In this document: positions 11,091-26,565 of the stretch, one piece after another
Layout of the letters: every line of letters begins with the position of its first letter
How positions within the stretch are numbered: position 1 is the first letter of the stretch
From: Bacteroidetes bacterium RIFCSPLOWO2_12_FULL_35_15
GTDB lineage: Bacteria > Bacteroidota > Bacteroidia > 2-12-FULL-35-15
NCBI GenBank assembly: GCA_001769385.1
Contig: MEPB01000019.1
Location: 62,001 to 126,000, forward strand
Length of the DNA: 64,000 nucleotides
Direction: 5' to 3'
Notes under the pieces: generated by a model
The model's input: only the letters and a program-made list of their open reading frames with translations
The model's database searches: none
What the model was told of the DNA's origin: nothing
Position numbers and translations under genes: made by a program

Positions 11091-13814
11091 TTATTTTTTA
11101 ATCCCTAATGGCGATCTTGCTTTACGAATAGTACATGCCACCACTTTATATTCCGGGCAAAGTGCTTCAGAATCAGAAATGTCGGAAGTAATGTTATTGA
11201 CCATATTTTCAGGAAAATGAAAGGTGCTGCTTAAAATCCCCGGTTGTACTTCATCCGTAATTTTTGCTTTTATATCTACTTTTCCTCTCGGACTTTCTAC
11301 ACAAACCATATCTCCATCACTGATGAAATGTTTTTTTGCATCTTCGGCACAGATCAGTAAAACATCTTCGGTGTTAATTAATACATTTCCTGTTCTGCGT
11401 GTCATGGCGCCACAATTGTAATGTTCCAACTCACGATTGGTTGTGATGATGTAAGGATATTTTTTTGAGTTTTGGGTTAGCTCTTCAGATTCTTTATAAT
11501 CTTTGTAAATGAACTTTCCTTTTCCTCTTCTGAAAGATTTGTTATGCAATATTTTTGTTCCTTTTCCATTTTCATTAACCGGCCATTGTTTTCCATTGTC
11601 TCCTAATCGATCCCATTTTACACCTGAAAAGAAAGGAACAATTTTAGAAATTTCCTGCAAGGTTGTATCCGGATGATAATCTGCCTGAGCATATCCCATG
11701 CGGTTCATGATGTCCACAATGATCTGTCCGTCTGCTTTTGTACTTGTAATTGGTTCCACCACTTTATTTACCCGCTGAATTCTTCGTTCGCCATTGGTGA
11801 ATGTGCCACTCTTTTCCAGGAAGGAGGCACCCGGTAAAATAACGGTTGCTAATTTTGCTGTTTCGGTCATAAATAATTCCTGCACAACAAGCAATTCTAA
11901 CTTATTTAATGCAGCAACTACTTTATGTGTATTCGGATCGGTTTGCGCAATATCTTCACCAATCACCCACATTGCTTTTAATTTATTTTCAAGTGCTGCA
12001 TCAAACATTTCCGGAATTTTATAACCGATATGTAGTGGTAATTTTGCCTGATAAAATTCTTCATAGACCTTATGCACTTCAATATCCGTTACATCCATAT
12101 ACCCTGCCCCTTGATGTGGCTGGCAACCCATATCGGCAGCACCTTGCACATTGTTTTGTCCGCGTAAGGGATTTACACCAACTCCTTTTCTACCAATGTT
12201 TCCGGTGATCATCGCCAGATCAGCAATTTGCATGACGGTAAATGTTCCTTGCGAATGTTCGGTAACACCGAGCCCATGAAACGACATAGCATTAGGCGCA
12301 CTTGCATAAGCGATCGCAGCAGCCTTCACTAAATTCCTGTCCACGCCCGAAACTTTTTCCATCTCATCAATATTCAGATTCAGAATTTGTTGTTTGAATT
12401 CTTCATACCCTTCGGTACGTGCAGCAATAAATTTTTTATCTTCCAGTCCTTCTTTAATGATGTAATATAACATCATGTTGAGCACTGCCACATTTGTTCC
12501 GGGACGTAATTGTAGATGATAATGTGCGTATTTCGCTAACTCAATTTTGCGCGGATCGATTACAATAAGCGTTTTGCCTTTCATGGCAGCCTGCTTTAAT
12601 TTAGCACCTGTTACAGGATGTGCATCTGTTGCATTGGCTCCGATCACTAACATGCAATCAGTATCTTTCAGATCAGCGATGGAATTTGTTGCTGCTCCTG
12701 TTCCGAAAGTGCTTTGCAAACCCAAGGCTGTTGGTGAATGACAAACTCTTGCGCAACTATCAATGTTATTGGTCCCGATAACTGCACGAAGAAATTTTTG
12801 CATCAGATAATTTTCTTCGTTTGTGCAACGTGCAGAGGAGATCCCTGCAATGAAATCAGCACCATTGTTTTTCTTTATTTCATTTAATTTACCCGAGATA
12901 AAATCATAGGCTTCATCCCAAGTTGCTTCCTCAAATTTTCCATTTCTTTTTATTAAAGGTGTGCGAAGTCTGTCGGCATGATTGTAAAACTTAAATGCAA
13001 ATCGTCCTTTCAAACAGGTATGTCCACTGTTTACTTCTGCATCATACGGTGCTTGAATTGATTTGATAACACCGCCTTTTACCGCTACATCTAAATTACA
13101 ACCAACACCACAATAGGTACAAACGGTACGTACTTTTTCATCAGCAACAATTGATTTTGATTCGAACACATCCGAAATAGCAGATGTAGGACAAGCCTGG
13201 GCACACGCCCCGCAACTTACACATTCGCTTCCGAAAAAAGTAGTTTCCATTCCTTTCACAATGTGACTATCAAAACCGCGACCGGCCATGCTTAATACAA
13301 ATTGTCCTTGTACTTCATCGCAGGCACGCACACAACGGAAACAATTGATACATTTCGAAAAATCGGAGGTCATGTAAGGATGACTCAGATCTTTTTTTGT
13401 AGCCAGATGGTTTTTTCCTTCCGGATAACGTACATCACGAACACCAACTCGTGCTGCAACTGTTTGTAATTCACAATTGTTATTTACTTCACAGGTCAAG
13501 CAATCCAATGGATGATCGGTTAAAACCAATTCAATAATATTTTTTCTAAGTTTTTGTATGCGTTCCGAATCAGGATAAATAAATGAATTTTCCATCACAG
13601 GTGTATGACAGGAAGCTTGTGCTTTTACATTTCCTTCTTTCGCAAATGCCACATCCACACTGCATACACGGCAGGAGCCAAAAGGGTCGAGATTAGGTGC
13701 ATCGCACAAAGTAGGAACAGCATTTTTTCCATGGTGACGTTTGATAAAGGAAAGAATGGTTTCTCCTTCTTCTATTTCAAAAGCGTTGTTGTTGATGTAG
13801 GCTATTTTACTCAT
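11091..13814 (-). CDS. fdhA: Formate dehydrogenase 1, catalytic alpha subunit (Mo-bisMGD)
   Basis: A 907-residue NuoG/FDH-type protein oxidising formate to CO2. Cofactor sites in order: a plant-type 2Fe-2S cluster (Cys37, 48, 51, 69); an N3-type His/Cys 4Fe-4S cluster (His101, Cys105, 108, 114); two ferredoxin-type 4Fe-4S clusters (Cys155, 158, 161, 165 and 198, 201, 204, 208); the molybdopterin-proximal cluster (Cys232, 235, 239, 267); and the catalytic RVCHSP, where Cys358-His359 occupy the metal-ligand Sec/Cys and adjacent His positions of formate dehydrogenases. The Cys codon means no selenocysteine machinery is needed. Molybdopterin and dinucleotide-binding domains complete it. The beta subunit lies 96 bp upstream. 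Absence of other nuo genes argues against complex I. Cytoplasmic, with no twin-arginine signal. Confidence 0.9.
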   Translation of the reverse strand: MSKIAYINNNAFEIEEGETILSFIKRHHGKNAVPTLCDAPNLDPFGSCRVCSVDVAFAKEGNVKAQASCHTPVMENSFIYPDSERIQKLRKNIIELVLTDHPLDCLTCEVNNNCELQTVAARVGVRDVRYPEGKNHLATKKDLSHPYMTSDFSKCINCFRCVRACDEVQGQFVLSMAGRGFDSHIVKGMETTFFGSECVSCGACAQACPTSAISDVFESKSIVADEKVRTVCTYCGVGCNLDVAVKGGVIKSIQAPYDAEVNSGHTCLKGRFAFKFYNHADRLRTPLIKRNGKFEEATWDEAYDFISGKLNEIKKNNGADFIAGISSARCTNEENYLMQKFLRAVIGTNNIDSCARVCHSPTALGLQSTFGTGAATNSIADLKDTDCMLVIGANATDAHPVTGAKLKQAAMKGKTLIVIDPRKIELAKYAHYHLQLRPGTNVAVLNMMLYYIIKEGLEDKKFIAARTEGYEEFKQQILNLNIDEMEKVSGVDRNLVKAAAIAYASAPNAMSFHGLGVTEHSQGTFTVMQIADLAMITGNIGRKGVGVNPLRGQNNVQGAADMGCQPHQGAGYMDVTDIEVHKVYEEFYQAKLPLHIGYKIPEMFDAALENKLKAMWVIGEDIAQTDPNTHKVVAALNKLELLVVQELFMTETAKLATVILPGASFLEKSGTFTNGERRIQRVNKVVEPITSTKADGQIIVDIMNRMGYAQADYHPDTTLQEISKIVPFFSGVKWDRLGDNGKQWPVNENGKGTKILHNKSFRRGKGKFIYKDYKESEELTQNSKKYPYIITTNRELEHYNCGAMTRRTGNVLINTEDVLLICAEDAKKHFISDGDMVCVESPRGKVDIKAKITDEVQPGILSSTFHFPENMVNNITSDISDSEALCPEYKVVACTIRKARSPLGIKK

Positions 13815-13830
13815 GATGTTCTTTTTGGAT

Positions 13831-13893
13831 TACCCTAAGGGTTTTTAAAACCGTTAGAGAAATACCCTAAGGGTTTTTAAAACCCTTAGGGTA
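13831..13893. repeat. Paired palindromic repeats between formate dehydrogenase 1 genes
   Basis: TACCCTAAGGGTTTT-T-AAAACCCTTAGGGTA at 13863-13893 is a perfect 15-bp stem with a one-base loop. A degenerate copy of the same motif precedes it at 13831-13857. It sits between the beta and alpha genes, where it could attenuate or stabilise the transcript. It looks like a dispersed intergenic palindrome rather than a terminator, since it lacks a T-tail. Confidence 0.75.
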
Positions 13894-13910
13894 TGCTTTC
13901 TTCAATTATT

Positions 13911-15599
13911 TTATTTTTTAAAATACCCCTTCAATTCCTCCTCAAAATACATCAAGGCATTTTTTATCGGTAATGGTAATCCGCCACCCAATGCGCATAA
14001 CGAACCTATTTCCATAGTCGTTAACAGATCAGCAAATAATTCTTTATCTATTTTATAATCCTCTGTAAGTGATTTGTTGATTAGCTCAAATCCCCGTGTA
14101 GCGCCTAATCTACAAGGAAAACATTTTCCGCAACTTTCGTGAGCTGTAAATTGAAATAAATGTTCGATATACTTTATCATTGGAAATTTTTCGGGGATAC
14201 AAACGATAGAAGCATGTCCCAGGAGAAAACCATTTTGTGAAAAAGACTCGAAATCAATACTTAGCTCATTTATTTTTTGCATTGGAACGATGCCCCCAAG
14301 CGGACCACCAATATGAAGGGCTTTTATTTTTGTTTTAAAACCACCACCTAATTCATTTATAAGAATGGAAAGCGGAGTGCCCATATCTACTTCATAAATT
14401 CCCGGTTTGTTAAAAAAGCCATCCAGAGAAACTAATTTTGTTCCGGTTGATTTTCCTTTGCCGATTTTTGCAAAAGCTTCTCCGCCATGTTGAATGATAT
14501 AAGGAATACAAGCCAAAGTTTCCACATTATTTACTACGGTTGGTTTGTTGAATAAACCTTGTTGAGTCGGGTAGGGCGGACGAACACGCACTTCGGGCCG
14601 TTGGCCTTCGATGGAAGAAAGCAAAGCCGTTTCTTCACCACAGATATAAGCGCCTTGTGCTGCAATAATTTTAAAGTCGAAATTAAAAGTACTGTCGAAA
14701 ATATTCTTTCCGATTATTTTTTTTATCCGTAATTCATCAATTGCTTTTTGCGTGATCTCTATTGCTTCGGGATATTCTGCGCGGATGTAAAGCACACCTT
14801 TGTCGGCCCCCATAATGTAACCCGCTATCATCATCCCTGATAAAACAGAATGTGTTTGTTGTTCCAGTAAATAACGATCGGAGTATGCTCCGGGGTCGCC
14901 TTCATCGGCATTGCAGACAATAAATTTTTGTTTACCCGGGGTGTTTTTTGCGGATTCAATTTTAAATGATATGGGGAAACCTGCACCACCACGTCCACGC
15001 AAGCCTGATAATTTTAATTCATTCAACAATTCATCTTCAGATTTTGTTAATGCTGTTTTTAAAATTTTATAATAGTCGTCAGTTGATGTTAAGGCAGAAG
15101 TTAAAACTGCTGTTCCTTTTGCAGCGGTATTATATTTATCGGTGAGATTTGAGATTTGAGAACTGAGATATGATAGTGTCGGATTGAGTTGATGCGATTT
15201 TATTTCTTCTATTTTGTTTATTGCGGTTCCTGAGTAATTTTTTCCGGCTATGTGAAAAGAAGCATTTTCGTGGCAACGGCCCAAACAACACATTTCACCA
15301 ATTTCTTCGGATCTATAATGTTGAAGTAAGTGCTCCTTTAATTTAGGTTGTGTCCCTGCGGTCATGCATGAACTTCCGTTGCAGACATATACTTTTTTCC
15401 CTTGATTCTCGGGACGCAAAAAATCATAGAAGCTGGCAGTACCATAAATATTGGCTTTTCCCATGATGAACTCATTTGCCAGCTCCTCCATTTTTTCGGA
15501 TGAAGGAGTTCCAGTTTGTCTGGCAGCTTTGCCTAGTTCTTCAAAAAGATTTTTATCAAGGGCTTTTCTTCCTGATAACTCGCTTAAATTTTTTGACAT
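13911..15599 (-). CDS. Formate dehydrogenase 1, NuoE-NuoF fused beta subunit
   Basis: A 562-residue diaphorase subunit. Residues ~1-125 are a NuoE-like helical plus thioredoxin-fold domain with a 2Fe-2S site (Cys73, Cys78, Cys105, Cys109). Residues ~165-560 are NuoF-like: the NADH-binding GLRGRGGAGFP, the FMN-site region IVCNADEGDPGAY, GAYICGEETALLSS, and the 4Fe-4S motif ESCGKCFPCRLG with a later Cys. It passes electrons from the alpha subunit to NAD+. Unlike the paralogue at 23250 it ends without a C-terminal ferredoxin domain. It is the first gene of the operon, with alpha next. A Crp/Fnr-like dyad lies 36-51 bp upstream. Confidence 0.88.
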   Translation of the reverse strand: MSKNLSELSGRKALDKNLFEELGKAARQTGTPSSEKMEELANEFIMGKANIYGTASFYDFLRPENQGKKVYVCNGSSCMTAGTQPKLKEHLLQHYRSEEIGEMCCLGRCHENASFHIAGKNYSGTAINKIEEIKSHQLNPTLSYLSSQISNLTDKYNTAAKGTAVLTSALTSTDDYYKILKTALTKSEDELLNELKLSGLRGRGGAGFPISFKIESAKNTPGKQKFIVCNADEGDPGAYSDRYLLEQQTHSVLSGMMIAGYIMGADKGVLYIRAEYPEAIEITQKAIDELRIKKIIGKNIFDSTFNFDFKIIAAQGAYICGEETALLSSIEGQRPEVRVRPPYPTQQGLFNKPTVVNNVETLACIPYIIQHGGEAFAKIGKGKSTGTKLVSLDGFFNKPGIYEVDMGTPLSILINELGGGFKTKIKALHIGGPLGGIVPMQKINELSIDFESFSQNGFLLGHASIVCIPEKFPMIKYIEHLFQFTAHESCGKCFPCRLGATRGFELINKSLTEDYKIDKELFADLLTTMEIGSLCALGGGLPLPIKNALMYFEEELKGYFKK

Positions 15600-15634
15600 G
15601 CAATTTTTATTTTACAACATGAAGGTATGAAATA

Positions 15635-15669
15635 TATGATAAAAATCATATTTTGATGATGTGGATCAA
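15635..15669. promoter_or_regulatory. Candidate Crp/Fnr-type dyads upstream of formate dehydrogenase 1
   Basis: TATGAT-AAAA-ATCATA (15635-15650) is a perfect dyad with the 4-bp spacer of Fnr/Crp-family sites (TGATnnnnATCA core). TTGAT-N7-ATCAA follows at 15653-15669 with a non-standard spacer. The first is 36 bp from the start codon of the minus-strand beta gene. Redox control of formate oxidation is plausible, but no regulator gene is in the window. Confidence 0.4.
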
Positions 15670-15872
15670 GAATAAAAAAGAAAGAGGAATCAGGAGATAA
15701 CTTTTTTATAATGAGGACGTATAGGTTGTAAATGATTAATCAGTGTTCGTGAATAATTTAAAACACAAATAAATAATTAGGAGGATGCGTATTAATAGAT
15801 CAATAAATCAAACAAATATTTTTTAAACATAATCTTTTGAAACAATTCTCTAAACAATTTATATTAAACAAA

Positions 15873-16370
15873 ATGAAAGCATCAAAACAAAATTTTACCT
15901 CAAAAAGCTACAAAGTGTTTTTGTGTGTCCTAAGCATAGTATGCGTTGTTATACTATCTAACAGTGTTTATGCCCAAAAGAAAGAAGCGGCAGAAAAGAA
16001 GGTGCCCGATAAACTTCTTGCCGGAAAAATATATACAATTGAACTTACCGCCCAAGGTGGTAAAAAAGTAGCAGATCCGGAGAAAGATGAACTAAGTTTT
16101 AAATCGGATAAGTTTACTTCAAACTTAATGAAGACCAATGAACAATTTATGGCTGCACCTTATACCGCAGCTATTGACAGCTCTAATACAGAAAGTAAGG
16201 TAATTACTTTTGAAGTGGAAAGTAAAAATTCAGGGGATGAAATTTTAAAATGGACGGGCACCGTGACAGGAGAGGAAATTGAGGGTACTGCTGTGTGGAC
16301 GAGTAAAAAAGGGAAAATAAAAAAGGAATATAAATTTACCGGGACCTTAAAAGGTAAGAAGAAAAAGTGA
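15873..16370 (+). CDS. Exported protein of unknown function
   Basis: About 165 residues from the ATG at 15873; a TTG 36 bp upstream also keeps the frame, but the ATG places a normal signal peptide (VFLCVLSIVCVVILSNSVYAQ) near the N-terminus. The mature protein is Lys-rich and beta-strand-like (GKIYTIELTAQGGKK, VITFEVESKNSGDEILKWTGTV) with a basic tail KGKKKK. It resembles small Bacteroidota periplasmic proteins of unknown role. The phrase TGTVTGEEIEGTAVW suggests a small beta-barrel or lipocalin-like fold, but this is only an impression. Probably monocistronic. Confidence 0.7.
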   Translation: MKASKQNFTSKSYKVFLCVLSIVCVVILSNSVYAQKKEAAEKKVPDKLLAGKIYTIELTAQGGKKVADPEKDELSFKSDKFTSNLMKTNEQFMAAPYTAAIDSSNTESKVITFEVESKNSGDEILKWTGTVTGEEIEGTAVWTSKKGKIKKEYKFTGTLKGKKKK

Positions 16371-16395
16371 AATTTACTTTTTTAAATTTATAATA

Positions 16396-16448
16396 TAAGG
16401 TTTCGAATAGTTGCTGCAAAAGGCCTTTCTAGTTGAAACCTTTTTACT
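16396..16448 (+). terminator. Possible terminator after the exported protein gene
   Basis: AAGGTTTC and GAAACCTT form 8-bp complementary arms around a ~30-bp loop that itself contains AAAGGCCTTT, followed by TTTTACTTG. Position and T-rich tail suit a terminator; the loop is long. Confidence 0.45.
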
Positions 16449-16669
16449 TGTTCTATTTCATCAAAGGAGACTTAAAAAAAGATAATTTAATTTCAAGCAG
16501 AAAAAAGACAGAAATTTGTTTCGAATACTTGTGACAAAACCCTCCCTCAATCCTGATAAAAATCCTCAAAAATAATTATTTTCTTCCATTTGAATGATTG
16601 AACGATATAATTCCTATGTTTGTCGAAATTTAAAATGATTTAAACTAAAAAAAATTAAGAAAAAAAATT
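16449..16669. other. Intergenic region before the cold-shock-domain gene
   Basis: No gene seen. It is AT-rich, with TGATAAAAATCC near 16557, an imperfect match to the dyads elsewhere. A long leader is usual for cold-shock genes, but no recognised RNA motif is visible. Confidence 0.3.
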
Positions 16670-16969
16670 ATGAAAAAATCTTCAATGTTTGTTAAAGGAT
16701 TGTTATGCCTTTTATTTCTAGTTACAATTTCCTTTACTTCCAATGCAATGAAAACAGGAACTGTTAAATTTTTTAATGAAGCAAAAGGGTTTGGAATGAT
16801 AACCGATGTTGAGACGGGTATCGACATGGAATTTGAAATTCAGCCTGGTGTTGAATTCAAAATTGGGGATGAAGTTGTGTATATAATTGTTACCAAGGGA
16901 AATGGTGATGTTATGGTAATAGTAGAAGGTAAAAAAGGACTTAATGCAGTGAATGTAAAACAAGCATAA
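16670..16969 (+). CDS. Cold-shock-domain protein with N-terminal signal peptide
   Basis: A 99-residue protein. Residues 1-26 form a textbook signal peptide (MFVKGLLCLLFLVTISFTSNA). From residue 27 it reads as a cold-shock domain: MKTGTVKFFNEAKGFGMITD carries the first strand and the RNP1 motif K-G-F-G. The RNP2 region, usually F-V-H, is replaced by EFEI, so an important nucleic-acid contact is missing. Length after the signal is 73 residues, normal for the domain. Either this is an exported domain turned to a new use, or translation can also start at the internal Met27 (16748), making a cytoplasmic form. A strong terminator follows. Standard cold-shock proteins are cytoplasmic RNA chaperones. 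Confidence 0.8.
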   Translation: MKKSSMFVKGLLCLLFLVTISFTSNAMKTGTVKFFNEAKGFGMITDVETGIDMEFEIQPGVEFKIGDEVVYIIVTKGNGDVMVIVEGKKGLNAVNVKQA

Positions 16970-16990
16970 TTTATTTTTTTTATTTCAAAT

Positions 16991-17023
16991 GGAGGTTGAC
17001 CCAAAAGGTCAGCCTCTTTTTTT
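16991..17023 (+). terminator. Rho-independent terminator of the cold-shock-domain gene
   Basis: GAGGTTGACC-CAAAA-GGTCAGCCTC followed by T7, 22 bp after the stop. One internal mismatch pair (T-G) in a 10-bp stem. Confidence 0.9.
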
Positions 17024-17125
17024 GTATTATAATAAAGAGAAAAACATTTTCCCGTGTCATCATTTCTTCCCAATAAAACAAAGCATTTTTTTAACAGGGA
17101 CTTTTATTTAGAGGTTGAAGATTTA

Positions 17126-17310
17126 GAGTCTTTTTAAATTGTACTTAAAAAGGTAGTGTATGTTCATTTCGACTCCTTCGATTTTGCTAAGGATAAACTC
17201 TTGGAGAAATCTGTAGTTTAATTTTATTGAGATTTCTCCCTCTGGTCGAAATGACAGTATGGTAAAAAATACCCGTAACCAGATTCTTTTATTAAAATTT
17301 AAAAAGACTC
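17126..17310. mobile_element. MITE-like element, copy B
   Basis: A 185-bp non-coding element with terminal inverted repeats GAGTCTTTTTAAATT (left) and AAATTTAAAAAGACTC (right). Inside it carries the reverse complement of copy A, including the exact 27-bp match at 17229-17255 and the arm with CTCCTTCGATTTTGCTAAGG. Copies A and B lie in opposite orientation 11 kb apart. With flanks, the non-coding gap here runs 17024-17481. Confidence 0.72.
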
Positions 17311-17320
17311 CAAGAGATTA

Positions 17321-17332
17321 TGATAAATATCA
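17321..17332. promoter_or_regulatory. Candidate Crp/Fnr-type dyad
   Basis: TGAT-AAAT-ATCA, an exact Fnr/Crp-type core, lies 10 bp beyond the MITE-like element and 150 bp before the DUF1801 gene. It may be chance: the core is expected a few times per 64 kb of AT-rich DNA. Confidence 0.25.
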
Positions 17333-17481
17333 CGTTTCAATGATTGTGTTTCAGTAATTTGGAGAACCGAATCAAGTATTATAATAATTGATAGATATTT
17401 ATTAATGAAATGTTATAAATTAGCCTGATAATAATTTGAAGCAAGGATTTGTTGCTGAAACACCAAAAGCAAAAATAAGTT

Positions 17482-17853
17482 ATGAAAAAGCCTTTGAATA
17501 TTGATGAGTATATTAAAAATTACCCAAAAGAAATTCAACAGCGTTTGGAAAAAATCCGCACAACAATAAAAAATAATGCTCCCAAGGCAGAAGAAGTTAT
17601 CAGTTACGGAATGCCGGCATTCAAATTAAATGGATTGCTTGTTTGGTTTGCGGCCCACAAAAAACACATAGGTTTCTATCCCAAAGCTTCAGGAATTGAA
17701 GCCTTTAAAAAAGAACTTTCTGTTTTTAAAGGAGCGAAGGGTTCTGTTCAATTTCCTTTTGACAAGCCTCTTCCAATCGGACTAATCACAAAAATTATAA
17801 AATTCAGAGTGAAAGAAAATTTGGAAAAAGCAAAAAACAAGGAAAAAAAATAA
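17482..17853 (+). CDS. DUF1801 (YdhG/CyaY-like) protein
   Basis: A 123-residue cytoplasmic protein that matches the DUF1801 family: IDEYIKNYPKEIQQRLEKIR, EEVISYGMPAFKLNG, HKKHIGFYPKASGIEAFK and KGSVQFPFDKPLPIGLI are family hallmarks. The fold resembles YdhG and frataxin-like proteins; some members have been linked to iron handling, but no reaction is established. Length is typical. The next gene starts 49 bp downstream on the same strand and may share its transcript. The C-terminus is a Lys-rich tail. Confidence 0.85.
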   Translation: MKKPLNIDEYIKNYPKEIQQRLEKIRTTIKNNAPKAEEVISYGMPAFKLNGLLVWFAAHKKHIGFYPKASGIEAFKKELSVFKGAKGSVQFPFDKPLPIGLITKIIKFRVKENLEKAKNKEKK

Positions 17854-17902
17854 TAAACAATTAATTTTAAAATTTTCTCATTTAATATTAAACCATTTAA
17901 CT

Positions 17903-18643
17903 ATGAAAAATAAACTATTCGTTTTAATCCTTGCAGCAAGCTTTTTAACCATGTTGTTTTCTTGCGGAGGAAATAATAATAAACCCGAAACGCCAAAAAA
18001 AATCGAAGTAACAGGTAGCGCTGAAATGGAAATTGTTCCCAATGAAATTTATATGACATTCACACTGAAAGAATATCTGGATGCAGCAAAGCAAAAGGTA
18101 AAATTAGAAACCATTAAAACTGATTTTCTGGCACTGTGTAAAGCTGCGGGTGTAGCCGACAGCAGTATAAGTATTTCAAGTTATACAGGAAATGAACGGT
18201 ATGATTATTATTATTGGAAAAAAAAGCGCAAAGCTGAGCCTGATTTTATGGCTTCTATATCCTATACGCTGATTGTTAGTTCACCCGAAAAACTGGATAA
18301 AATTGTAGCGGGTTTAAACGAAAATGCCATCGATAATTTCAGCGTTGGCAAAACTTCGCATAGCAACATTGAGCAATTACGTAAAGAAGTAAAAACTCAG
18401 GCTCTGATTGCCAGCAAAACAAAAGCCGATTATTTAGCAGAAAGTATTGGGGAAGAAATAGGCGAGGCATTGCTCATTCAGGAAATCGAAAATAGTTATA
18501 ATGGTTATTATTCTAACGAAAGTAATTTTAGCAATACGGTGAGCCAAACCGCAATGAGCTATGGAAGAAATAATACCTCAACACCTGATTTTCAGAAAAT
18601 AAAGTTACGTTACGAAATGAAGGTAGAGTTTAAACTGAAGTAA
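17903..18643 (+). CDS. SIMPL-domain (DUF541) lipoprotein
   Basis: A 246-residue protein with a lipoprotein signal (FLTMLFSCGG, lipidated Cys at about residue 21). The body matches the SIMPL/DUF541 family: it opens with IEVTGSAEMEIVPNEIYMTFTL, the family's typical first strand, contains the long helix-forming middle with TQALIASKTKADYLAESIGE, and ends in LRYEMKVEFKLK. SIMPL proteins form periplasmic or surface beta-rich assemblies of unclear role; in animals a relative binds a signalling kinase, which says nothing about this one. An atypical YDYYYWKKKRKA insert lies near residue 95. Confidence 0.82.
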   Translation: MKNKLFVLILAASFLTMLFSCGGNNNKPETPKKIEVTGSAEMEIVPNEIYMTFTLKEYLDAAKQKVKLETIKTDFLALCKAAGVADSSISISSYTGNERYDYYYWKKKRKAEPDFMASISYTLIVSSPEKLDKIVAGLNENAIDNFSVGKTSHSNIEQLRKEVKTQALIASKTKADYLAESIGEEIGEALLIQEIENSYNGYYSNESNFSNTVSQTAMSYGRNNTSTPDFQKIKLRYEMKVEFKLK

Positions 18644-18729
18644 GACTCTTATGGTTAAGCATTGATCTTTAGTTCAACGATATGGTCTTTCACAAGATGC
18701 CCAACAATAGAAACTTAAATTAAAAACAC

Positions 18730-19530
18730 ATGAATCCAAAAACATTAGTTCGTCTAAGTAATATTGTTGGAACAATTTCCATCCTGCTTTTAATTTATTG
18801 GGTTTTTGTATTTATTTCGATTCAGGTATTCGGTTTAAAAGTATTTCGTGAAAACATGACCGAAACATTCTTTATGAGTGTACTCGGTATTTTGGCATTG
18901 ATGTTTGGTGCCTTAATTATTAATATCATGTTCAACCTTACACGCATTGCTCAAAAACACAATCAGGATGATATCGAGACGGCAAGGTCTTCATCAAAAA
19001 AAATAGGCATAATTTTCATTATCAGTTTTCCATTGGTTTTCGGTTTATTATATGGAGGAGATTATTTGACGTCTAAGAAAAAAGAAAAAATGCTGATTGA
19101 AAGTGCTGAATCTATAATACAGGACAATACCATAAAGGCAAATAAATTGACAAATTATTCATTTGATAAAAAATGGATAAAAGAAACAAGTGAAATTTTG
19201 GATCTGCTTTCAAAGACCGACAAAAATTTTCCGAGCGTATCGGTAATTGTAAAAGACGAGATCGATCATTCAACTGTATTGTTAGGATTCAATTATTACT
19301 ATTATGATATAGCAAATGATACCATCCATCTTTCCAAAAGTAAATTTATTTACGAAACAACGAAAGAAGAAAGAGAATATTTAAACAAAGTGTTTGACAA
19401 AAAATTCAAGGAGATCAGATTCAGTGCCCATGATGGAAACTATGAATTGTATTATCCCTATTTCAAGGACAACAAAAAAATAGTATTGTACTTTTCGGAC
19501 TATCAGCGGTATGGTAAGTTAGGAAGTTAA
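18730..19530 (+). CDS. Membrane protein of unknown function
   Basis: A 266-residue protein with three likely membrane helices: about residues 12-35 (IVGTISILLLIYWVFVFISI), 45-70 (FFMSVLGILALMFGALIINI) and 90-112 (IGIIFIISFPLVFGLLYGG). They are followed by a ~150-residue soluble domain, probably periplasmic, that is mixed alpha/beta and ends in ELYYPYFKDNKKIVLYFSDY. I do not recognise the family. The gene starts 86 bp after the SIMPL gene and may belong to the same transcript. Confidence 0.7.
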   Translation: MNPKTLVRLSNIVGTISILLLIYWVFVFISIQVFGLKVFRENMTETFFMSVLGILALMFGALIINIMFNLTRIAQKHNQDDIETARSSSKKIGIIFIISFPLVFGLLYGGDYLTSKKKEKMLIESAESIIQDNTIKANKLTNYSFDKKWIKETSEILDLLSKTDKNFPSVSVIVKDEIDHSTVLLGFNYYYYDIANDTIHLSKSKFIYETTKEEREYLNKVFDKKFKEIRFSAHDGNYELYYPYFKDNKKIVLYFSDYQRYGKLGS

Positions 19531-19570
19531 ATTAAATTCAAATATTGATCATCCTGCTAAAAAGAAAAAC

Positions 19571-20023
19571 ATGAAAACAAACAAATTGATTCTTATCGCA
19601 TTTACAATAGCAGCAGTTTTTTTAAGTACAAGCTGTAAGAAAAAAATACGAGGTTGCACAGATCCAGCGGCAACAAATTACAAAACATCTGCTAATGAAG
19701 AGGATGGCAGTTGCACGTTTGAAGGAAGTGTGGTGTTGTGGTATGGACAAACTACCTCAGATTTGTTGATTCAGAATGGGCATTCTTTTTTAGAATATTC
19801 AATAGATTATTCTTATGCTGATGATTCAGATTGCTCCGCTTATTATACAACTGCTCCAAATTGTGGCGAAAGTGGTTCCGTAACAGTAACAAAAAACTTA
19901 GGTAATAGTAGTTCTAAATCTTTTTATTATTCTGTTGTTTGTGTAGGCACTGATTCTGTTCTCTGGTCAGGGAATTTAACTTTTACTGCAAAGACATGCA
20001 CAAAACATGAATTACATTATTAA
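19571..20023 (+). CDS. Small lipoprotein with Cys-rich GCTDPAATNY motif
   Basis: A 150-residue lipoprotein (signal AFTIAAVFLSTSC, lipidated Cys ~22). It carries RGCTDPAATNYKTSANEEDG, the short Cys-bracketed, acidic motif frequent in surface proteins of Bacteroidota and possibly calcium-binding. The rest is Ser/Thr/Tyr-rich and beta-like. There is no catalytic motif. It starts 40 bp after the membrane-protein gene, so the four genes from 17482 may be one operon. Function unknown. Confidence 0.72.
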   Translation: MKTNKLILIAFTIAAVFLSTSCKKKIRGCTDPAATNYKTSANEEDGSCTFEGSVVLWYGQTTSDLLIQNGHSFLEYSIDYSYADDSDCSAYYTTAPNCGESGSVTVTKNLGNSSSKSFYYSVVCVGTDSVLWSGNLTFTAKTCTKHELHY

Positions 20024-20226
20024 GTTATATTTCCAAGAATTTTAGATCCGAAATTTATTTTGTTGTGAGTGGTAATAAAGAACAAAAATAATAAAGCAGT
20101 CCAGACAAGAGCTCCGGTTTTATGAATTTTTGTTTTGAATAGAAATTTGAGCTATATCTAAATACCTTCTTGATATATTTGCTTCAAAGCAGACATACTC
20201 GAAAAGAATAGAAAAAATAATAATAA

Positions 20227-22956
20227 TTACGGTCGTGCCTGCCTAAATCCTCTTTCAACAACGGCAACGCCATCACTTACTTTTTCAATTTTAATGGCGC
20301 ATGCTTTATATTCAGGGGTTTCTGTTACATCATCATAGGCATCATTGGTCAACACATTTGCATGTGCTTCACGGAAGTGAAATGCACACCAGGTTACACC
20401 TTCCGGTGAACGTTCTGTTACCCATGCTTTCAGCGTTATGGTTCCTCGTCTGCTTGTAGCCTTCACCATATCACCGGTTTTTACGTTCATTCGTTTTGCA
20501 TCAACCGGACTGATCTCCAACAATTCTTCAGGGAAAATATTTTCTAATCCAATGGAGTTCCGTGTTTGTGTTCCGGTGTGGTAATGCCACAATCTGCGCC
20601 CTGTTGATAGAATGAATGGAAATTCTTTATCCGGTAATTCTGCTTGTGCACGATAGTTTGTTTGCGAGAATAAACCTTTTCCACGCGTGAATTTTCCGTT
20701 CAAATGTAAGATGGGTGTTCCCGGATGTTGCACTGTTGGACAAGGCCACTGAAGTCCTATGTGTTGAATACGGTCATAAGTAATGCCTCCCATAATGGTT
20801 CCGCTTCTTCTCATATCTTCCCAGGTTGCATTTGCTGAGGTAAATTTCAAGTCAACACCAAAACGTTTTCCTAACTCCTGCATGATCCACCATGTAGGAC
20901 GAGCTTCTCCGGGTGCATCAACAGCTTTGCGTAAAAACTGAACCCGTCTGTCAAGATTGGAATACGTTCCTTCATCTTCATTAAAACAAACATCCGGTAA
21001 TATCACATCCGCATATTCTGTAGTCATGTTAGGGAAAATATCAACTACCACAAGGAAATCCAAGGCTTCTACTTCTTTGATTGTTTTTGCTGTATTTGGC
21101 TCTGTCTGAACAGTATTATCACCAACACAGAATAATATTTTTGTTTCTCCTGTTGTTGCTTTGTGCAACATGGTTGGTAATTTATATCCTTCTTTTCGTG
21201 ATAGACCCGTTACACCCCAGTCTTTTTCCATTTTCTCAATCGCCTTTTCATCCGTAGCTGATTGATAATTATGAAATACATTAGGCAAAGCGCCCATGTC
21301 ACATGCTCCTTGCACATTGTTTTGTCCGCGCAATGGATTTACTCCACAACCTCTTTTTCCTAAATGACCCAGTATCATTTGCAAATTGGCAAGTGTTTTT
21401 ACATTATCCGTTCCGCATACATGTTCAGTGATTCCGAGTGTATATAGAATACTTACTTTTTTTGCATCAGCCAGCATTTTTGCCACTTGTTTTATTTTTT
21501 CAACCGGCACTCCCGAAATTTCAGATGCTTGTTCAACAGTAAAATCCTTCAACCATTTTTTTATTTCTTCCGGATTCTCTGTATTATTTTTCATGAACTC
21601 TTTATCTTCCCAACCATTATTCAAAATCTCAGTCATGAGTCCGTTTAAAAAAGGAACATCCGTTCCGACTCTTATTGGAACATACAGATCGGACCAATGT
21701 GCAATGTCCACTCTGCGTGGGTCACAAACAATTAGTTTGGCTCCATTCTGGGCAGCACGTTTTACATAATAGGAAACTACCGGATGTGCTTCTGTCATGT
21801 TCGAACCGATAACGAAAATTAATTCCGTTTCTGAAATCTCATCAATTGAATTAGTTGCAGCTCCACTTCCAAAGGCATGAGCAAGTCCTGCAACTGTGGG
21901 TGCATGACATGTTCTGGCGCAATGATCAATATTGTTTGTTTTAATTACAGCTCGTGTAAATTTTTGAATAGCATAATTGTTTTCATTCGTGATTCGTCCT
22001 GAACCAAGTGCTGAAAATACATCCGGACCATGTTTATCAACTGTCGTTTTTATTTTTTCTGCGATCAGATCCAATGCTTCATCCCAGGTTGCACGTTCAT
22101 GTTTCCCATTCTTTTTGATTGTTGGATACTGCAAACGTTTCGGACTATCATGAAACTCAAATCCATAACGCCCCTTCACACAAAGCATTCCATTGTTTGG
22201 CCACACTTCGCGACCGGTAACACGTACTACTTTATTTTTTGCACGATCTACATGCAAAGTCATTTGACAGCCTACACCGCAGTATGGACAAGTAGTATCT
22301 ACTTTTTCCAATTCTGAAAAACGACCTTTGCCTCTTGATTTTTTATCTGTTAATGCACCTGTCGGGCACAGTTGCACACATTCTCCGCATTGCACACAAG
22401 TTGATTCACCCATCGGAATATCATCATCGCACATGATGGTAGTTTCCAAACCACGAAATCCGAAACCCAGCACTTCATTCACTACCGAATGATTGCAGGC
22501 TGCAACACATCTTCCACACTTGATACATTTATCATAATCAATCACAATAAATTCAGAGCTCTCATCTTTTCTTCCGGTCGGATGATCAGAAAAAGTTGTC
22601 TTTTCGATTCCCAAATGATAACACGCATCTTGCAACTCGCAGCTGCCACTTCTATCACAAGCCAGACAATTATGATAACCGGACGAAAGCATCAGATCAA
22701 CAACCATTCTTTGTGCATCTTTAATTTCTTTGCTTTCGCTACTAACATTCATGCCTTCCTTTACCTTGAGATTACAGGATGTTTGATAGCCTCGCATACC
22801 TTCAACAGAAACAACACATGCTCTGCATTTTGCAGCTTGTCCGGTTTTTACATGATAACATAAAGTAGGAATATAAATGCCGTTTCTTTTAGCAACATCA
22901 AGAACGGTTTCGTTTTCTTGTGCTGTGTAAGAGGTGTTATTTATGGTGATTTGCAT
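20227..22956 (-). CDS. fdhA: Formate dehydrogenase 2, catalytic alpha subunit (Mo-bisMGD)
   Basis: A 909-residue paralogue of the 11091 subunit with the same order of sites: 2Fe-2S (Cys33, 44, 47, 61), His/Cys cluster (His95, Cys97, 100, 106; note the shorter H-x-C spacing than the paralogue's H-x3-C), two ferredoxin clusters (Cys144, 147, 150, 154 and 187, 190, 193, 197), molybdopterin-proximal cluster (Cys223, 226, 230, 259), and RTCHAP with Cys350-His351 at the metal site. It catalyses formate oxidation or CO2 reduction. Sequence divergence between the two alphas is substantial throughout, so they are not a recent duplication. The diaphorase subunits lie upstream on the same strand after a ~290-bp gap. 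Cytoplasmic. Confidence 0.9.
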   Translation of the reverse strand: MQITINNTSYTAQENETVLDVAKRNGIYIPTLCYHVKTGQAAKCRACVVSVEGMRGYQTSCNLKVKEGMNVSSESKEIKDAQRMVVDLMLSSGYHNCLACDRSGSCELQDACYHLGIEKTTFSDHPTGRKDESSEFIVIDYDKCIKCGRCVAACNHSVVNEVLGFGFRGLETTIMCDDDIPMGESTCVQCGECVQLCPTGALTDKKSRGKGRFSELEKVDTTCPYCGVGCQMTLHVDRAKNKVVRVTGREVWPNNGMLCVKGRYGFEFHDSPKRLQYPTIKKNGKHERATWDEALDLIAEKIKTTVDKHGPDVFSALGSGRITNENNYAIQKFTRAVIKTNNIDHCARTCHAPTVAGLAHAFGSGAATNSIDEISETELIFVIGSNMTEAHPVVSYYVKRAAQNGAKLIVCDPRRVDIAHWSDLYVPIRVGTDVPFLNGLMTEILNNGWEDKEFMKNNTENPEEIKKWLKDFTVEQASEISGVPVEKIKQVAKMLADAKKVSILYTLGITEHVCGTDNVKTLANLQMILGHLGKRGCGVNPLRGQNNVQGACDMGALPNVFHNYQSATDEKAIEKMEKDWGVTGLSRKEGYKLPTMLHKATTGETKILFCVGDNTVQTEPNTAKTIKEVEALDFLVVVDIFPNMTTEYADVILPDVCFNEDEGTYSNLDRRVQFLRKAVDAPGEARPTWWIMQELGKRFGVDLKFTSANATWEDMRRSGTIMGGITYDRIQHIGLQWPCPTVQHPGTPILHLNGKFTRGKGLFSQTNYRAQAELPDKEFPFILSTGRRLWHYHTGTQTRNSIGLENIFPEELLEISPVDAKRMNVKTGDMVKATSRRGTITLKAWVTERSPEGVTWCAFHFREAHANVLTNDAYDDVTETPEYKACAIKIEKVSDGVAVVERGFRQARP

Positions 22957-23099
22957 GGTGCAATTATTTTATATTCGTGTTTATTATTTTGTTGTGATCA
23001 TTCAACTGGTTTGCAACCCCAAATACATATTTCACTCCTATAGGGCATAACAAAAATATTAATTTACTATAAAGATGTCTTTCAGCTGGAACTTCTGCA

Positions 23100-23180
23100 A
23101 TCTCTGTTCGACCCCTGCGGGGTCGCATATTAATAGAAAATACATTATTATTAACCTTTGACCCCTGCGGGGTCAAATAT
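23100..23180. repeat. Two short palindromes between formate dehydrogenase 2 genes
   Basis: CGACCCC-TGC-GGGGTCG (about 23108-23124) and TTTGACCCC-TGC-GGGGTCAAA (about 23157-23177) share core and loop and sit ~50 bp apart in the 293-bp gap between the NuoF-like and alpha genes. They look like a dispersed palindrome family and could affect expression of alpha relative to the upstream genes. Confidence 0.7.
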
Positions 23181-23249
23181 TCAATCATTAATAGTGACAG
23201 TTTCCTGTGAGTCCAATCAAAATAGAAAAAATAAATTCAAAATTTCAAT

Positions 23250-25112
23250 CTAATATTTAACAATTGCATCAAATTTACAAGTGCTTAAACACAATCCACA
23301 ACGAATACACAAGTCGGTATTGATGATATGATGCTGTTTTTTCTCTCCGTGAATGGCCTCAACCGGACACACTTTTTTACACGCCTGGCATCCATTACAA
23401 ACATTAAGAATTTCAAAAACAATAAGTTCCTTACAAACTGCTGTTCTGCATTTTTTATCCCTGATGTGTTCAATATATTCTTCTCTGAAATGTCGCAACG
23501 TACTCAAAACCGGATTTGGAGCAGTTTGTCCGAGTCCGCATAAAGAAGCGTTAGTTACAGTAGCTGCAAGTTTTTCCAGTTCCTCAATATCTTTCATTTC
23601 ACCTTTGCCTTCACAGATTCTGTCAACAATTTGTTTCATACGTGCTGTTCCTTCGCGGCAAGGAACACATTTGCCGCAGGATTCATCCTGAACAAATTCC
23701 AGAAAGAAACGGGCAACATCTACCATGCAACTGCTTTCATCCATCACGATCAACCCTCCACTTCCCATGATGGCGCCTAATTTATTGAGTGATTCATAAT
23801 CCAAAGGAACATCCAGATGTTCGGCAGGAATACAACCTCCTGATGGTCCGCCAATTTGTGCAGCTTTGTATTTTTTATTGGTAGAAATTCCTCCACCAAT
23901 ATCATACACTAATTTTCGCAAAGGAGTACCAACAGGAACTTCTACAAGTCCTGAAATTTTTATTGTTCCGGCAAGAGCAAATATTTTTGTGCCTTTACTT
24001 TTTTCTGTTCCGGTTTCGGCAAACTGAGCTCCTCCTTTAGTAATTAAAAGTGGGATGTTAGAAAATGTTTCTACATTATTCAGAACAGTTGGCTTGTTCC
24101 ATAATCCTTTTTCTGCCGGAAAAGGAGGGCGAGGGCGCGGTTCACCACGATTTCCTTCAATAGAAGTAATGAGTGCGGTTTCTTCTCCACATACAAATGC
24201 TCCTGACCCTTTTCTGATCTCCAGATCAAAATTAAAACCAGTGCCTAAAATATTATTTCCAATCAATCCAAACTCTTGTGCCTGATCAATTGCAATTTGC
24301 AGCCTTTCTATAGCAAGCGGATATTCTGCACGAACATACACATAACCAATAGAACTTCCGATCGCATAAGCACCAATTGCCATCCCCTCAATGATGCTGT
24401 GTGGGTCGCCTTCCAGAATACTACGATCCATAAATGCTCCCGGATCCCCTTCATCTGCATTACATAAAATATATTTTTCTTTATCCTGACTTTTTCTTGC
24501 AAAGCTCCATTTTGTGCCTGTTGGGAAGCCCGCTCCGCCACGCCCACGCAGACCAGATACAGTCACTTCCTGAACAGCCTGCTCACTGGTCATGCTGCTT
24601 AAAACCTTGCTCAATGCCTGATAACCACCGGCTGCTATGTAATCTGAAATTTTGGTTGGATTTATTTTTCCGCAATTTCTAAGGACCTGTTTATCCTGAT
24701 TTTTAAAAAATGGTAATTCTGATTTTTTAGAAATTTTTTGTTCATCTACCGGATGTAAAAGTTTTTCAACAACAATGCCGGCAATTAAATGTTGTTCAAC
24801 AATATCTTTCACATCTTGTGCACGCACTTTCTGATAAAATGTATCATCCTTTCCTATAACAACTACAGGGCCAATGGCACATGGTCCCAGGCAACCTGTT
24901 TCCATGATGTCTATCGTTTCATTTAATTTAGAATTTGCCAGTTGAGAAACAAAAGCATCTTTTATTTTCATGGAACCTGAAGCAATACAACCACCACCGG
25001 CACATATAAATACTTTTTCGGAATTATATTCTTTGCTTTTTAAGAGGGTGTTTCTTACTGCTTGCAACTCTTCTGCATTCTTAATGAATTGCATGTACTT
25101 ATTAATATCCAT
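23250..25112 (-). CDS. Formate dehydrogenase 2, NuoF-type beta subunit with ferredoxin tail
   Basis: A 620-residue diaphorase subunit in three parts. Residues ~30-110 are a thioredoxin-fold 2Fe-2S domain (Cys37, Cys42, Cys74, Cys78). Residues ~140-560 are NuoF: GLRGRGGAGFPTGTKW, ILCNADEGDPGAFMD, GAFVCGEETALITSIEG, and the cluster motif DESCGKCVPCREG. Residues ~570-620 are a two-cluster ferredoxin (Cys572, 575, 578, 582 and 602, 605, 608, 612). This layout is that of HydB/HndC-type subunits, known from NAD-dependent and electron-bifurcating hydrogenases and formate dehydrogenases. It may thus couple NAD and ferredoxin. It overlaps the upstream NuoE-like gene by 11 bp. Confidence 0.9.
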   Translation of the reverse strand: MDINKYMQFIKNAEELQAVRNTLLKSKEYNSEKVFICAGGGCIASGSMKIKDAFVSQLANSKLNETIDIMETGCLGPCAIGPVVVIGKDDTFYQKVRAQDVKDIVEQHLIAGIVVEKLLHPVDEQKISKKSELPFFKNQDKQVLRNCGKINPTKISDYIAAGGYQALSKVLSSMTSEQAVQEVTVSGLRGRGGAGFPTGTKWSFARKSQDKEKYILCNADEGDPGAFMDRSILEGDPHSIIEGMAIGAYAIGSSIGYVYVRAEYPLAIERLQIAIDQAQEFGLIGNNILGTGFNFDLEIRKGSGAFVCGEETALITSIEGNRGEPRPRPPFPAEKGLWNKPTVLNNVETFSNIPLLITKGGAQFAETGTEKSKGTKIFALAGTIKISGLVEVPVGTPLRKLVYDIGGGISTNKKYKAAQIGGPSGGCIPAEHLDVPLDYESLNKLGAIMGSGGLIVMDESSCMVDVARFFLEFVQDESCGKCVPCREGTARMKQIVDRICEGKGEMKDIEELEKLAATVTNASLCGLGQTAPNPVLSTLRHFREEYIEHIRDKKCRTAVCKELIVFEILNVCNGCQACKKVCPVEAIHGEKKQHHIINTDLCIRCGLCLSTCKFDAIVKY

Positions 25113-25638
25113 TTTTTTCCTCCTCCTGTTTTACCTCTTTTTGTTTTTTATAGGAACTAATAATTTTCTTTACATCCGTAGGTTTAACCCATTGATGCAC
25201 ATCATCATTTACCATGATGATAGGAGCTAAGCCACAGGCTCCGAAACAACGTCCGACATCTAAAGTAAAAAGTTTATCGGGCGAAGTCTCACCAATTTCA
25301 ATACTTAATTGTTGTTTGAGGGCTGTTAATATTTCATTGGCTCCCTGCACATAACATGCTGTTCCAAGGCAAACCCGTATCAAAAATTTGCCGCGTGGTT
25401 TTAATGAGAAAAAAGAATAAAACGTGATAACGCCATATACTTTTTGTAAAGGCTCATTCAGAATTTCTGAAATTTTAAGAATCGCTTCCTGAGGAATATA
25501 TCCAAAAAGACTTTGTGTTGCTTGAAGTACAGGTATCAATGCACCGGGTTTGTCTTTAAATGAAATAATGATTTCTTCCAATCTATCCAACAATCCCTCT
25601 TCATCATTACCACAGGAACATTTTTCAACTTTTGCCAT
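25102..25638 (-). CDS. Formate dehydrogenase 2, NuoE-type gamma subunit
   Basis: A 178-residue NuoE-like protein: an N-terminal helical domain (SLFGYIPQEAILKISEIL, then VYGVITFYSFF, both family hallmarks) and a thioredoxin-fold domain with a 2Fe-2S site (Cys90, Cys95, Cys131, Cys135). A short extra CSC near the N-terminus (Cys7, Cys9) is not part of the usual site. It carries electrons between the NuoF-like subunit and NAD or its partners. It is the first gene of the gamma-beta-alpha operon and overlaps beta by 11 bp, which indicates translational coupling. The Lys/Glu-rich tail lies in the overlap. Confidence 0.9.
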   Translation of the reverse strand: MAKVEKCSCGNDEEGLLDRLEEIIISFKDKPGALIPVLQATQSLFGYIPQEAILKISEILNEPLQKVYGVITFYSFFSLKPRGKFLIRVCLGTACYVQGANEILTALKQQLSIEIGETSPDKLFTLDVGRCFGACGLAPIIMVNDDVHQWVKPTDVKKIISSYKKQKEVKQEEEKNGY

Positions 25639-25761: not shown

Positions 25762-26565
25762 TTAATGAACTTTAATATTTTCAATATGGCTATAAGCAGT
25801 AAATTTATTCTCCCTGCAAAAAGCCATCAGTGTTATTCCTAATGCTTCGGATAGATCAACCGCTAATGAGGATGGTGCCGAAACTGCTGCCAAAAAAGGA
25901 ATACCGGCAGCAAAACATTTGTTTACAATTTCGTAAGAGATGCGTCCGCTTACTACCATGCATTTTGCATTGTTCAATTGTTTTTGAAAAATTAAACTTC
26001 CGATCACTTTATCAACTGCATTGTGTCTTCCGATATCTTCCTGAATTGTCAATTGCTTCCCTTCAATTGTAAATGCCGCTGCTGCATGTGATCCGCCTGA
26101 TTGTTTGAATGTGTTTTGAGCCGAATTCATTTGTTCAAACATTCTTCCTACAAGTTCTGAATCTAATTTTTCTTCTACGATTATTTTTTTTGAATCACTT
26201 GGCAAGGTATCCAGTTCTGATTTCCCGCAAATTCCGCAAGACGAAACCGAAACAATGCTCCGGGAAATCTCCATTCCTTTTCCAACTTTTTCTTTAGGAA
26301 TGGTTACGTCAACTGATGTGATAAAACCTTTTTCGTTCATTTCTTTTACTACAATTATTGGATCAGGTTCTGGTTCCGAATAAACTCTTTCAGTAAATAA
26401 AAGTCCACGCACAAGCTCATTCTCAGAGCCCGGGGTACGCATGGTAATAGTAAATGGAGTATTGTTAATGGTTATTTTTAGCGACTCTTCTACTACAAGA
26501 ATATCGTTAACCTGAATGGATTTTCCTTCGGTATATTTTTGACCTTTATAGGAGGATGTACTCAT
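25762..26565 (-). CDS. fdhD: FdhD, sulfur carrier for formate dehydrogenase maturation
   Basis: A 267-residue FdhD. Known role: it moves sulfur from a cysteine desulfurase to the molybdenum cofactor, adding the sulfido ligand that formate dehydrogenase needs. The essential Cys pair is SSCGICGKSEL (Cys110, Cys113), matching the C-x-x-C of the family. Other hallmarks: LVRGLLFTERV, GGSHAAAAFT, EDIGRHNAVDKVIG and the C-terminal ISYEIVNKCFAAGIPFLAAVSAPSSLA. It lies 123 bp upstream of the gamma subunit gene on the same strand. It would serve both formate dehydrogenases, since no second fdhD is seen. Confidence 0.95.
   Translation of the reverse strand: MSTSSYKGQKYTEGKSIQVNDILVVEESLKITINNTPFTITMRTPGSENELVRGLLFTERVYSEPEPDPIIVVKEMNEKGFITSVDVTIPKEKVGKGMEISRSIVSVSSCGICGKSELDTLPSDSKKIIVEEKLDSELVGRMFEQMNSAQNTFKQSGGSHAAAAFTIEGKQLTIQEDIGRHNAVDKVIGSLIFQKQLNNAKCMVVSGRISYEIVNKCFAAGIPFLAAVSAPSSLAVDLSEALGITLMAFCRENKFTAYSHIENIKVH

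Follow-up and report, generated by a model that had tools for sequence, protein, structure and literature searches.

Gene structure and flanking signals

Does this locus encode a cold-shock protein that leaves the cytoplasm, and is the part that leaves still a cold-shock protein? The question is raised by an open reading frame in the window (the whole stretch of 64,000 nucleotides that was analysed) which begins with an ATG at 16670 of the + strand, reaches the end of its stop codon at 16969 and encodes a product of 99 amino acids, P0001. The earlier note on this DNA had described it as a signal peptide fused in frame to a cold-shock domain of the kind encoded by csp genes. The reading frame is a real gene, since it has a full-length homologue, P0003, and a dN/dS of 0.24 against it. 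The following features were assigned in and around the gene.

16670..16969, + strand: gene for P0001, a putatively exported cold-shock mosaic protein; 99 amino acids plus stop; homologue and dN/dS
16670..16747, + strand: signal-peptide-like segment, residues 1-26, with S-N-A before Met27; by inspection, and kept in P0003
16748..16795, + strand: csp-derived head, residues 27-42 (MKTGTVKFFNEAKGFG), including RNP1; 31.0 bits on the csp profile against 0.9 bits for the other family
16796..16921, + strand: middle segment, about residues 43-84, assigned by family profiles to an undescribed sensor-linked family; edges approximate
16922..16969, + strand: csp-derived tail, about residues 85-99 (VEGKKGLNAVNVKQA), and stop codon; 19.1 bits on the csp profile, no match to the other family
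16991..17017, + strand: terminator-like hairpin, then a T run
16615..16622, + strand: TATGTTTG, which fits the -7 consensus TAnnTTTG; consensus match only

The consensus TAnnTTTG matched by TATGTTTG is the one that we take to be the -7 consensus of Bacteroidota, and its counterpart at the P0003 gene, in a comparable position, is TATTTTTG. The P0003 gene is also followed, as seen by eye, by a hairpin and T run like those of P0001. A search for RNA families between 15000 and 19000 of the window gave none at gathering thresholds. On the - strand of the same window, two sets of molybdopterin oxidoreductase and NuoEF-like genes (Pfam, three of the ORFs) lie at 11091-15599 and 20227-25638; these are presumably formate dehydrogenase genes, and the ORF at 25762-26565 is taken to be FdhD-like.

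Homologue, distribution and selection

P0003, from genome G002, is 67% identical to P0001 across all 99 residues, and among 59 genomes (own included) a stop-free match spanning all 99 residues was found only in the own genome and G002. Of the 36 genomes from the order, a profile search found the full-length form in 2. In samples of 395 genomes from the class (E at most 1e-8) and 395 from the phylum (E at most 1e-10), neither of which contained G002, only the own genome had it; the matches in two further genomes of the phylum sample are to ordinary csp genes. The genome_contigs collection, in which 84,980 species are represented by one genome each, was scanned with the middle segment by exact-pattern matching, which reaches near relatives; the scan gave one relative, a metagenome-assembled Bacteroidia bacterium taken to be G002. 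In a search for a mobile origin, no plasmid record was found, and one unannotated phage record gave a csp-like match to residues 25-97. A link to defence was also considered and set aside, the cold-shock model of PADLOC having given a weak match only.

The gene neighbourhoods of P0001 and P0003 differ. Between the two genes dN/dS is 0.24 for the whole gene and 0.17 for the mature part, and over the whole gene the nonsynonymous and synonymous counts differ significantly (Fisher p 3.5e-7). Synonymous changes were counted at 2 of 9.5 sites in the tail and 7.5 of 9.3 in the head, numbers too small to be weighed.

Signal segment and choice of start

Residues 1-26 of P0001 (MKKSSMFVKGLLCLLFLVTISFTSNA) open with an n-region containing lysine, continue with a hydrophobic core and close with S-N-A, as judged by inspection and hydropathy, and thus have the Sec/SPI layout of n-, h- and c-regions with small residues at -3 and -1. 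The segment is retained together with its SNA-M end in P0003, the sole full-length homologue found, so that the search for the same fusion called for in the earlier note returned a protein that includes the hydrophobic stretch; this retention supports the export proposed there. Taken alone, the 26 residues of the signal segment have a dN/dS of 0.54, with nonsynonymous and synonymous counts that do not differ significantly (Fisher p 0.35); for residues 10-26 dN/dS is 0.30.

The predicted cut lies between A26 and M27 in both proteins, and is not followed by the Q that Bacteroidetes prefer after the cut. In P. gingivalis, more than 60% of the SPI substrates have Q at this position (PMC5837995). 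As a preference and not a requirement, this weakens the case for cleavage at A-M without excluding it, and we infer that P0001 is probably exported by Sec and cleaved.

An internal methionine, Met27, is indeed encoded at 16748, and the earlier note had suggested that it could start a second, cytoplasmic product. The start-context score was 5.05 for the first ATG and 0.15 for Met27, and that of Met27 in P0003 was -3.68, against a median of 2.26 for the reference set of 34 window ORFs with at least 200 aa. The first ATG ranks among the best 0.6% of the window's 2444 ATGs; Met27 stands at the 79th percentile of all window ATGs and the 15th of the 34 reference ORFs. Because the context of the first ATG is good and that of Met27 is poor in both homologues, the gene likely gives one exported product, and the proposed separate cytoplasmic product appears unlikely. 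The mature protein would begin with Met27-Lys28, exactly at the position where ordinary csp proteins start, as if the signal segment had been set directly before a csp start codon.

Cold-shock features of P0001

With PF00313, P0001 scored 25.9 bits (E 9.3e-6), under the gathering score of 27, and P0003 scored 25.6 bits; all 11 NCBIfam matches to P0001 were likewise under their cut-offs. A search of solved structures with P0001 returned cold-shock proteins, Y-box proteins and a single combinatorial protein. Cold-shock proteins carry an RNP1 motif, K-G-[FY]-G-[FY]-[IV], and an RNP2 motif with F-V-H. The KGFG of RNP1 persists, as the earlier note had observed, in P0001 as KGFGMI, from which the last aromatic is gone, and in P0003 as KGFGFV. 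At the RNP2 site, F-V-H is found in neither protein, P0001 having FEI and P0003 having FTV, whereas the three ordinary csp genes that were found by search in the own genome all encode FVH.

The mature part of P0001 has 73 residues and is about ten residues longer than the csp proteins of the own genome, which have 62-63. Its csp tail is intact, EGKKGLNAVNVK being identical in P0001 and P0003, and KFFN/KFYN and KGFG are kept in both. The mature proteins differ in charge, with a pI of 4.76 and a charge of about -3.5 for P0001 and a pI of 8.0 and a charge of +0.5 for P0003. P0001 was not placed among the cold-shock proteins because two defining features were tested and found absent; it was filed as a variant of known building blocks.

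Mosaic composition of the mature protein

Scoring of P0001 with two profiles, a csp control profile of 68 csp proteins and a profile of the sensor-linked family, divided the mature part into three. Residues 27-43 scored 30.9 bits on the csp profile and 0.8 bits on that of the sensor-linked family, whereas residues 43-86 scored 1.6 and 32.2 bits, respectively, with shuffles reaching at most 11.6 bits (1983 of 2000 shuffles reported). Residues 85-99 returned to the csp profile and had no match to the sensor-linked family. Sliding windows of 16 residues placed the switch points identically in P0001 and P0003. By these profiles the mature part of P0001 is a mosaic, with a head and a tail of csp type and a middle of another family. 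In P0001 the csp tail follows a last strand of the family type, and a family-type ending without the csp tail was not found.

This result changes how RNP2 is to be read. The replacement of FVH by FEI, letter by letter, stands as described in the earlier note, but FEI falls inside the middle segment at 16796..16921, and the description of a lost RNP2 is too narrow: since residues 43-86 are not csp sequence by profile, FEI is more than a mutated RNP2.

The sensor-linked family was reached through P0002, first noticed as a weak own-genome match to P0001 (E 0.04), which led to the relatives P0004, P0005 and P0006. A profile made from the four members, P0001 excluded, gave 8 matches in 7 of 395 class genomes at E at most 0.01; P0001 was among them at 1.3e-6, and no csp gene was. 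Two matches, those in G341 (E 0.0017, 11.8 bits) and G093 (E 0.0025, 12.2 bits), were in long, unrelated-looking frames and were not counted as members. On a later family profile, also without P0001, P0001 scored 36.6 bits (E 2.3e-8 per genome) and P0003 had an E of 1.7e-6. The full family profile gave 38.5 bits for P0001 and 31.2 for P0003, with at most 12.4 bits for the 68 csp proteins; one csp protein of genome G650, outside these controls, scored 15.7 bits. Because P0002 had been noticed through P0001, a profile lacking P0002 was built, the remaining members of which had still been reached through P0002, and on this profile P0001 scored 30.5 bits and P0003 27.0, against at most 12.8 for the 68 csp proteins and at most 11.9 for shuffles (1987 of 2000 reported). 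In a profile-profile comparison, P0001 together with P0003 matched both the sensor-linked family (E 2.4e-11) and csp proteins (E 3.5e-21).

The sensor-linked family

Ten members were collected: P0002 (own genome), P0004 (G042), P0005 (G009), P0006 (G028) and ORFs at the loci L067 (G163), L068 (G070), L123, L125 and L126 (all G028) and L124 (G009), that of L068 being cut by a contig end. Pfam gave no credible match in the 9 members scanned (best E 0.063), NCBIfam nothing near its cut-offs, and the search of solved structures only repetitive de novo trefoils and weak matches. No viral relatives were confirmed. Nine of the ten members adjoin a sensor-type gene of the TPR or Y_Y_Y kind, which in eight of these cases has a SpoIIE or histidine-kinase output.

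TPR-SpoIIE neighbour: P0004, P0005, P0006, L123, L067
Y_Y_Y-SpoIIE neighbour: P0002
TPR-histidine kinase neighbour: L124, L125
TPR protein neighbour, no recognised output domain: L126

In our reading the sensor-type neighbours probably span the membrane. SpoIIE domains are common in these genomes, numbering 52 in the own genome (5.4 Mb), 55 in G028, 46 in G009, 44 in G042 and 16 in G163, or about one per 75-200 kb. A single adjacency therefore means little; set informally against this density, nine of ten seems far above chance. By inspection, signal-like starts are present in P0005, L124, L125 and L126, and P0002, P0004, L067 and L123 are without a signal segment, so that membership of the family does not prove export. 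P0006 and L123 flank one TPR-SpoIIE gene of G028 (L076 316-2325), with L123, lacking a signal segment, upstream and P0006 downstream. P0006 itself lies directly behind a short export-like reading frame, as if the two had been frame-broken in that assembly. The csp genes L127 and L128 of G028 also appear frame-broken or cut short, and the assembly may carry indel errors. At two loci (L131 891-2366 and L132 1620-3173), TPR proteins end soon after the linker motif YAKRIQLSLLP and show only TPR-type repeats in Pfam, as if they had lost a SpoIIE domain.

No sensor-type gene adjoins P0001 among the eight neighbouring ORFs scanned from 11091 to 22956, the nearest SpoIIE domain in the window being at 31088-31657, and none was found beside P0003 in seven ORFs scanned on both sides. 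The link to sensors consequently holds for the family and not for the P0001 gene.

Origin of the mosaic

A second protein combining the two kinds of sequence is the L125 member of G028 (1468-1758, - strand), which has a signal-like start followed by a csp-like fragment, EVTYDVQEGKKG, at the mature N-terminus. The whole protein scored 15.3 bits on the csp profile, against a maximum of 4.2 bits for shuffles of its mature part, of which 1677 of 2000 were reported. Among the csp genes compared, the closest, L021 of the same genus, shares 31 of 36 bases with the fragment. As the fragment is short and was first noticed by eye, these data are only suggestive of a second, probably independent csp mosaic. 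At L068 of G070, a csp gene (1178-1369) and a family gene (1492-1593) lie tail-to-tail about 120 bp apart, a neighbourhood in which exchange could happen.

We infer that the mosaic arose by recombination. Head and tail DNA identities did not decide whether gene conversion had occurred: P0001 has its closest tail in P0003 (0.93), and the P0003 tail is just as close to an own-genome csp gene (0.93). The alternative is gradual divergence, in which the sensor-linked family would have descended from csp genes, with P0001 and P0003 as intermediates that kept the csp ends. The csp and family profiles show a weak co-linear match over head and middle (E 0.011, probability 3.9%), the G163 family member reaches 5.3 bits on the csp profile, and the G650 csp protein mentioned above has its 15.7 bits on the family profile. 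Divergence sits poorly, though, with the rather sharp switch points, with ends that are still close to present csp genes, with a csp tail placed after the family's last strand and with the different arrangement of the csp-like fragment in L125, which fits recombination better, and we consider it a possible but doubtful origin.

Fold and function

The most likely fold for P0001 would be a small OB-like beta-barrel. A structure model from an alignment of 32 sequences, 30 of them csp proteins, had a mean pLDDT of 64, and one from the two homologues alone had a mean pLDDT of 47. Cold-shock proteins fold as a five-strand OB barrel, and Foldseek with the former model, which thus had 30 csp proteins in its alignment, gave mostly cold-shock domains as best matches (best E 0.02, TM-scores <0.5). 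Both models were too weak to be used as evidence of fold.

Our proposal, to which we give about an even chance, is that P0001 is a Sec-exported mosaic that acts outside the cytoplasm and is more likely to bind protein than to serve as an RNA chaperone. The gene would yield a small protein exported by Sec, signal peptidase I would cut after Ala26 to release a mature domain of about 73 residues, and this domain, folded as a small OB-like beta barrel, would serve as a protein-binding factor located in the periplasm or at the surface. If the analogy with the sensor-linked family holds, it might act on the outer portion of a TPR or Y_Y_Y sensor, as a ligand or a modulator.

On another reading, P0001 would be exported but would keep the single-stranded nucleic-acid binding of a cold-shock protein, its altered middle tuning and not removing the binding, and would act on RNA or DNA in the periplasm, the biofilm matrix or vesicles. 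KFFN/KFYN and KGFG carry several of the binding aromatics of cold-shock proteins, and their retention in both homologues, with the complete KGFGFV of P0003 and the unchanged tail EGKKGLNAVNVK, would favour such binding. It is nevertheless doubtful, because the RNP2 histidine is replaced by I or V in the two proteins, the last RNP1 aromatic is gone in P0001 and mature P0001 is acidic, although P0003 is not; as the middle of P0001 also belongs by profile to another family, we regard this reading as rather unlikely. The signal segment might instead remain uncleaved as a membrane anchor, or an additional start at Met27 might leave a csp-like domain active in the cytoplasm. Met27 does stand exactly where a csp start codon would, and the cut departs from the Q rule, but the start context at Met27 is poor in both homologues and that of the first ATG is good. 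By the positive-inside rule, N-terminal positive residues leave the domain that follows an anchor on the outside, so that an anchored P0001 would be placed outside too, and we think these variants improbable. The rarity of the full-length form, seen in two genomes of the order and in the own genome alone of the class and phylum samples (G002 being in neither), would suit a decaying csp copy without function; against this, the frame is open, the whole gene is under purifying selection and the terminator-like hairpin is kept, which makes decay very improbable.

On the preferred reading of P0001 as an exported mosaic, a wider picture can be offered tentatively: a small beta-barrel-like family, exported in some members and cytoplasmic in others, would have as partners the numerous TPR/Y_Y_Y membrane sensors that these Bacteroidia carry, and csp sequence may have recombined into exported members at least twice, in P0001/P0003 and in L125. 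Cold-shock proteins are among the most conserved of cytoplasmic proteins. If the proposal is true, pieces of an intracellular RNA chaperone now serve in a signalling or binding protein outside the cytoplasm, and Sec-exported csp ends around a foreign core would be a clear instance of recombination on a scale smaller than the domain giving rise to a new small protein. P0001 also exposes a family that lacks a credible Pfam match in the members scanned and whose genes neighbour sensors of the SpoIIE and histidine-kinase types; such sensors would become testable through small partners on one or the other side of the membrane.

Comparison with known systems

Among the best matches listed in the open-access literature, no paper described an exported bacterial cold-shock domain. 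P0001 differs from the secreted Y-box proteins YB-1 and DbpA, which are long animal proteins said to leave by non-classical routes and not known to have a Sec signal peptide. What they have in common is a cold-shock-domain protein outside cells, as reported for animal Y-box proteins (PMC6158828, PMC11506473).

The L125 protein resembles P0001 in combining a family domain, an export-type start and a csp piece, but has a single short csp-like piece, placed ahead of the family domain. The sensor-linked family as a whole is like P0001 in residues 43-86, by profile, and in the signal-like starts of some members, whereas P0001 has in addition the csp head and tail and stands without a sensor-type neighbour. 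With the CspA-type cold-shock proteins (PF00313), P0001 shares the head MKTGTVKFFNEAKGFG and the tail EGKKGLNAVNVK, both of which match csp genes of its own genome; it departs from them in its signal segment, in the FEI at RNP2, in its foreign middle and in about ten extra residues.
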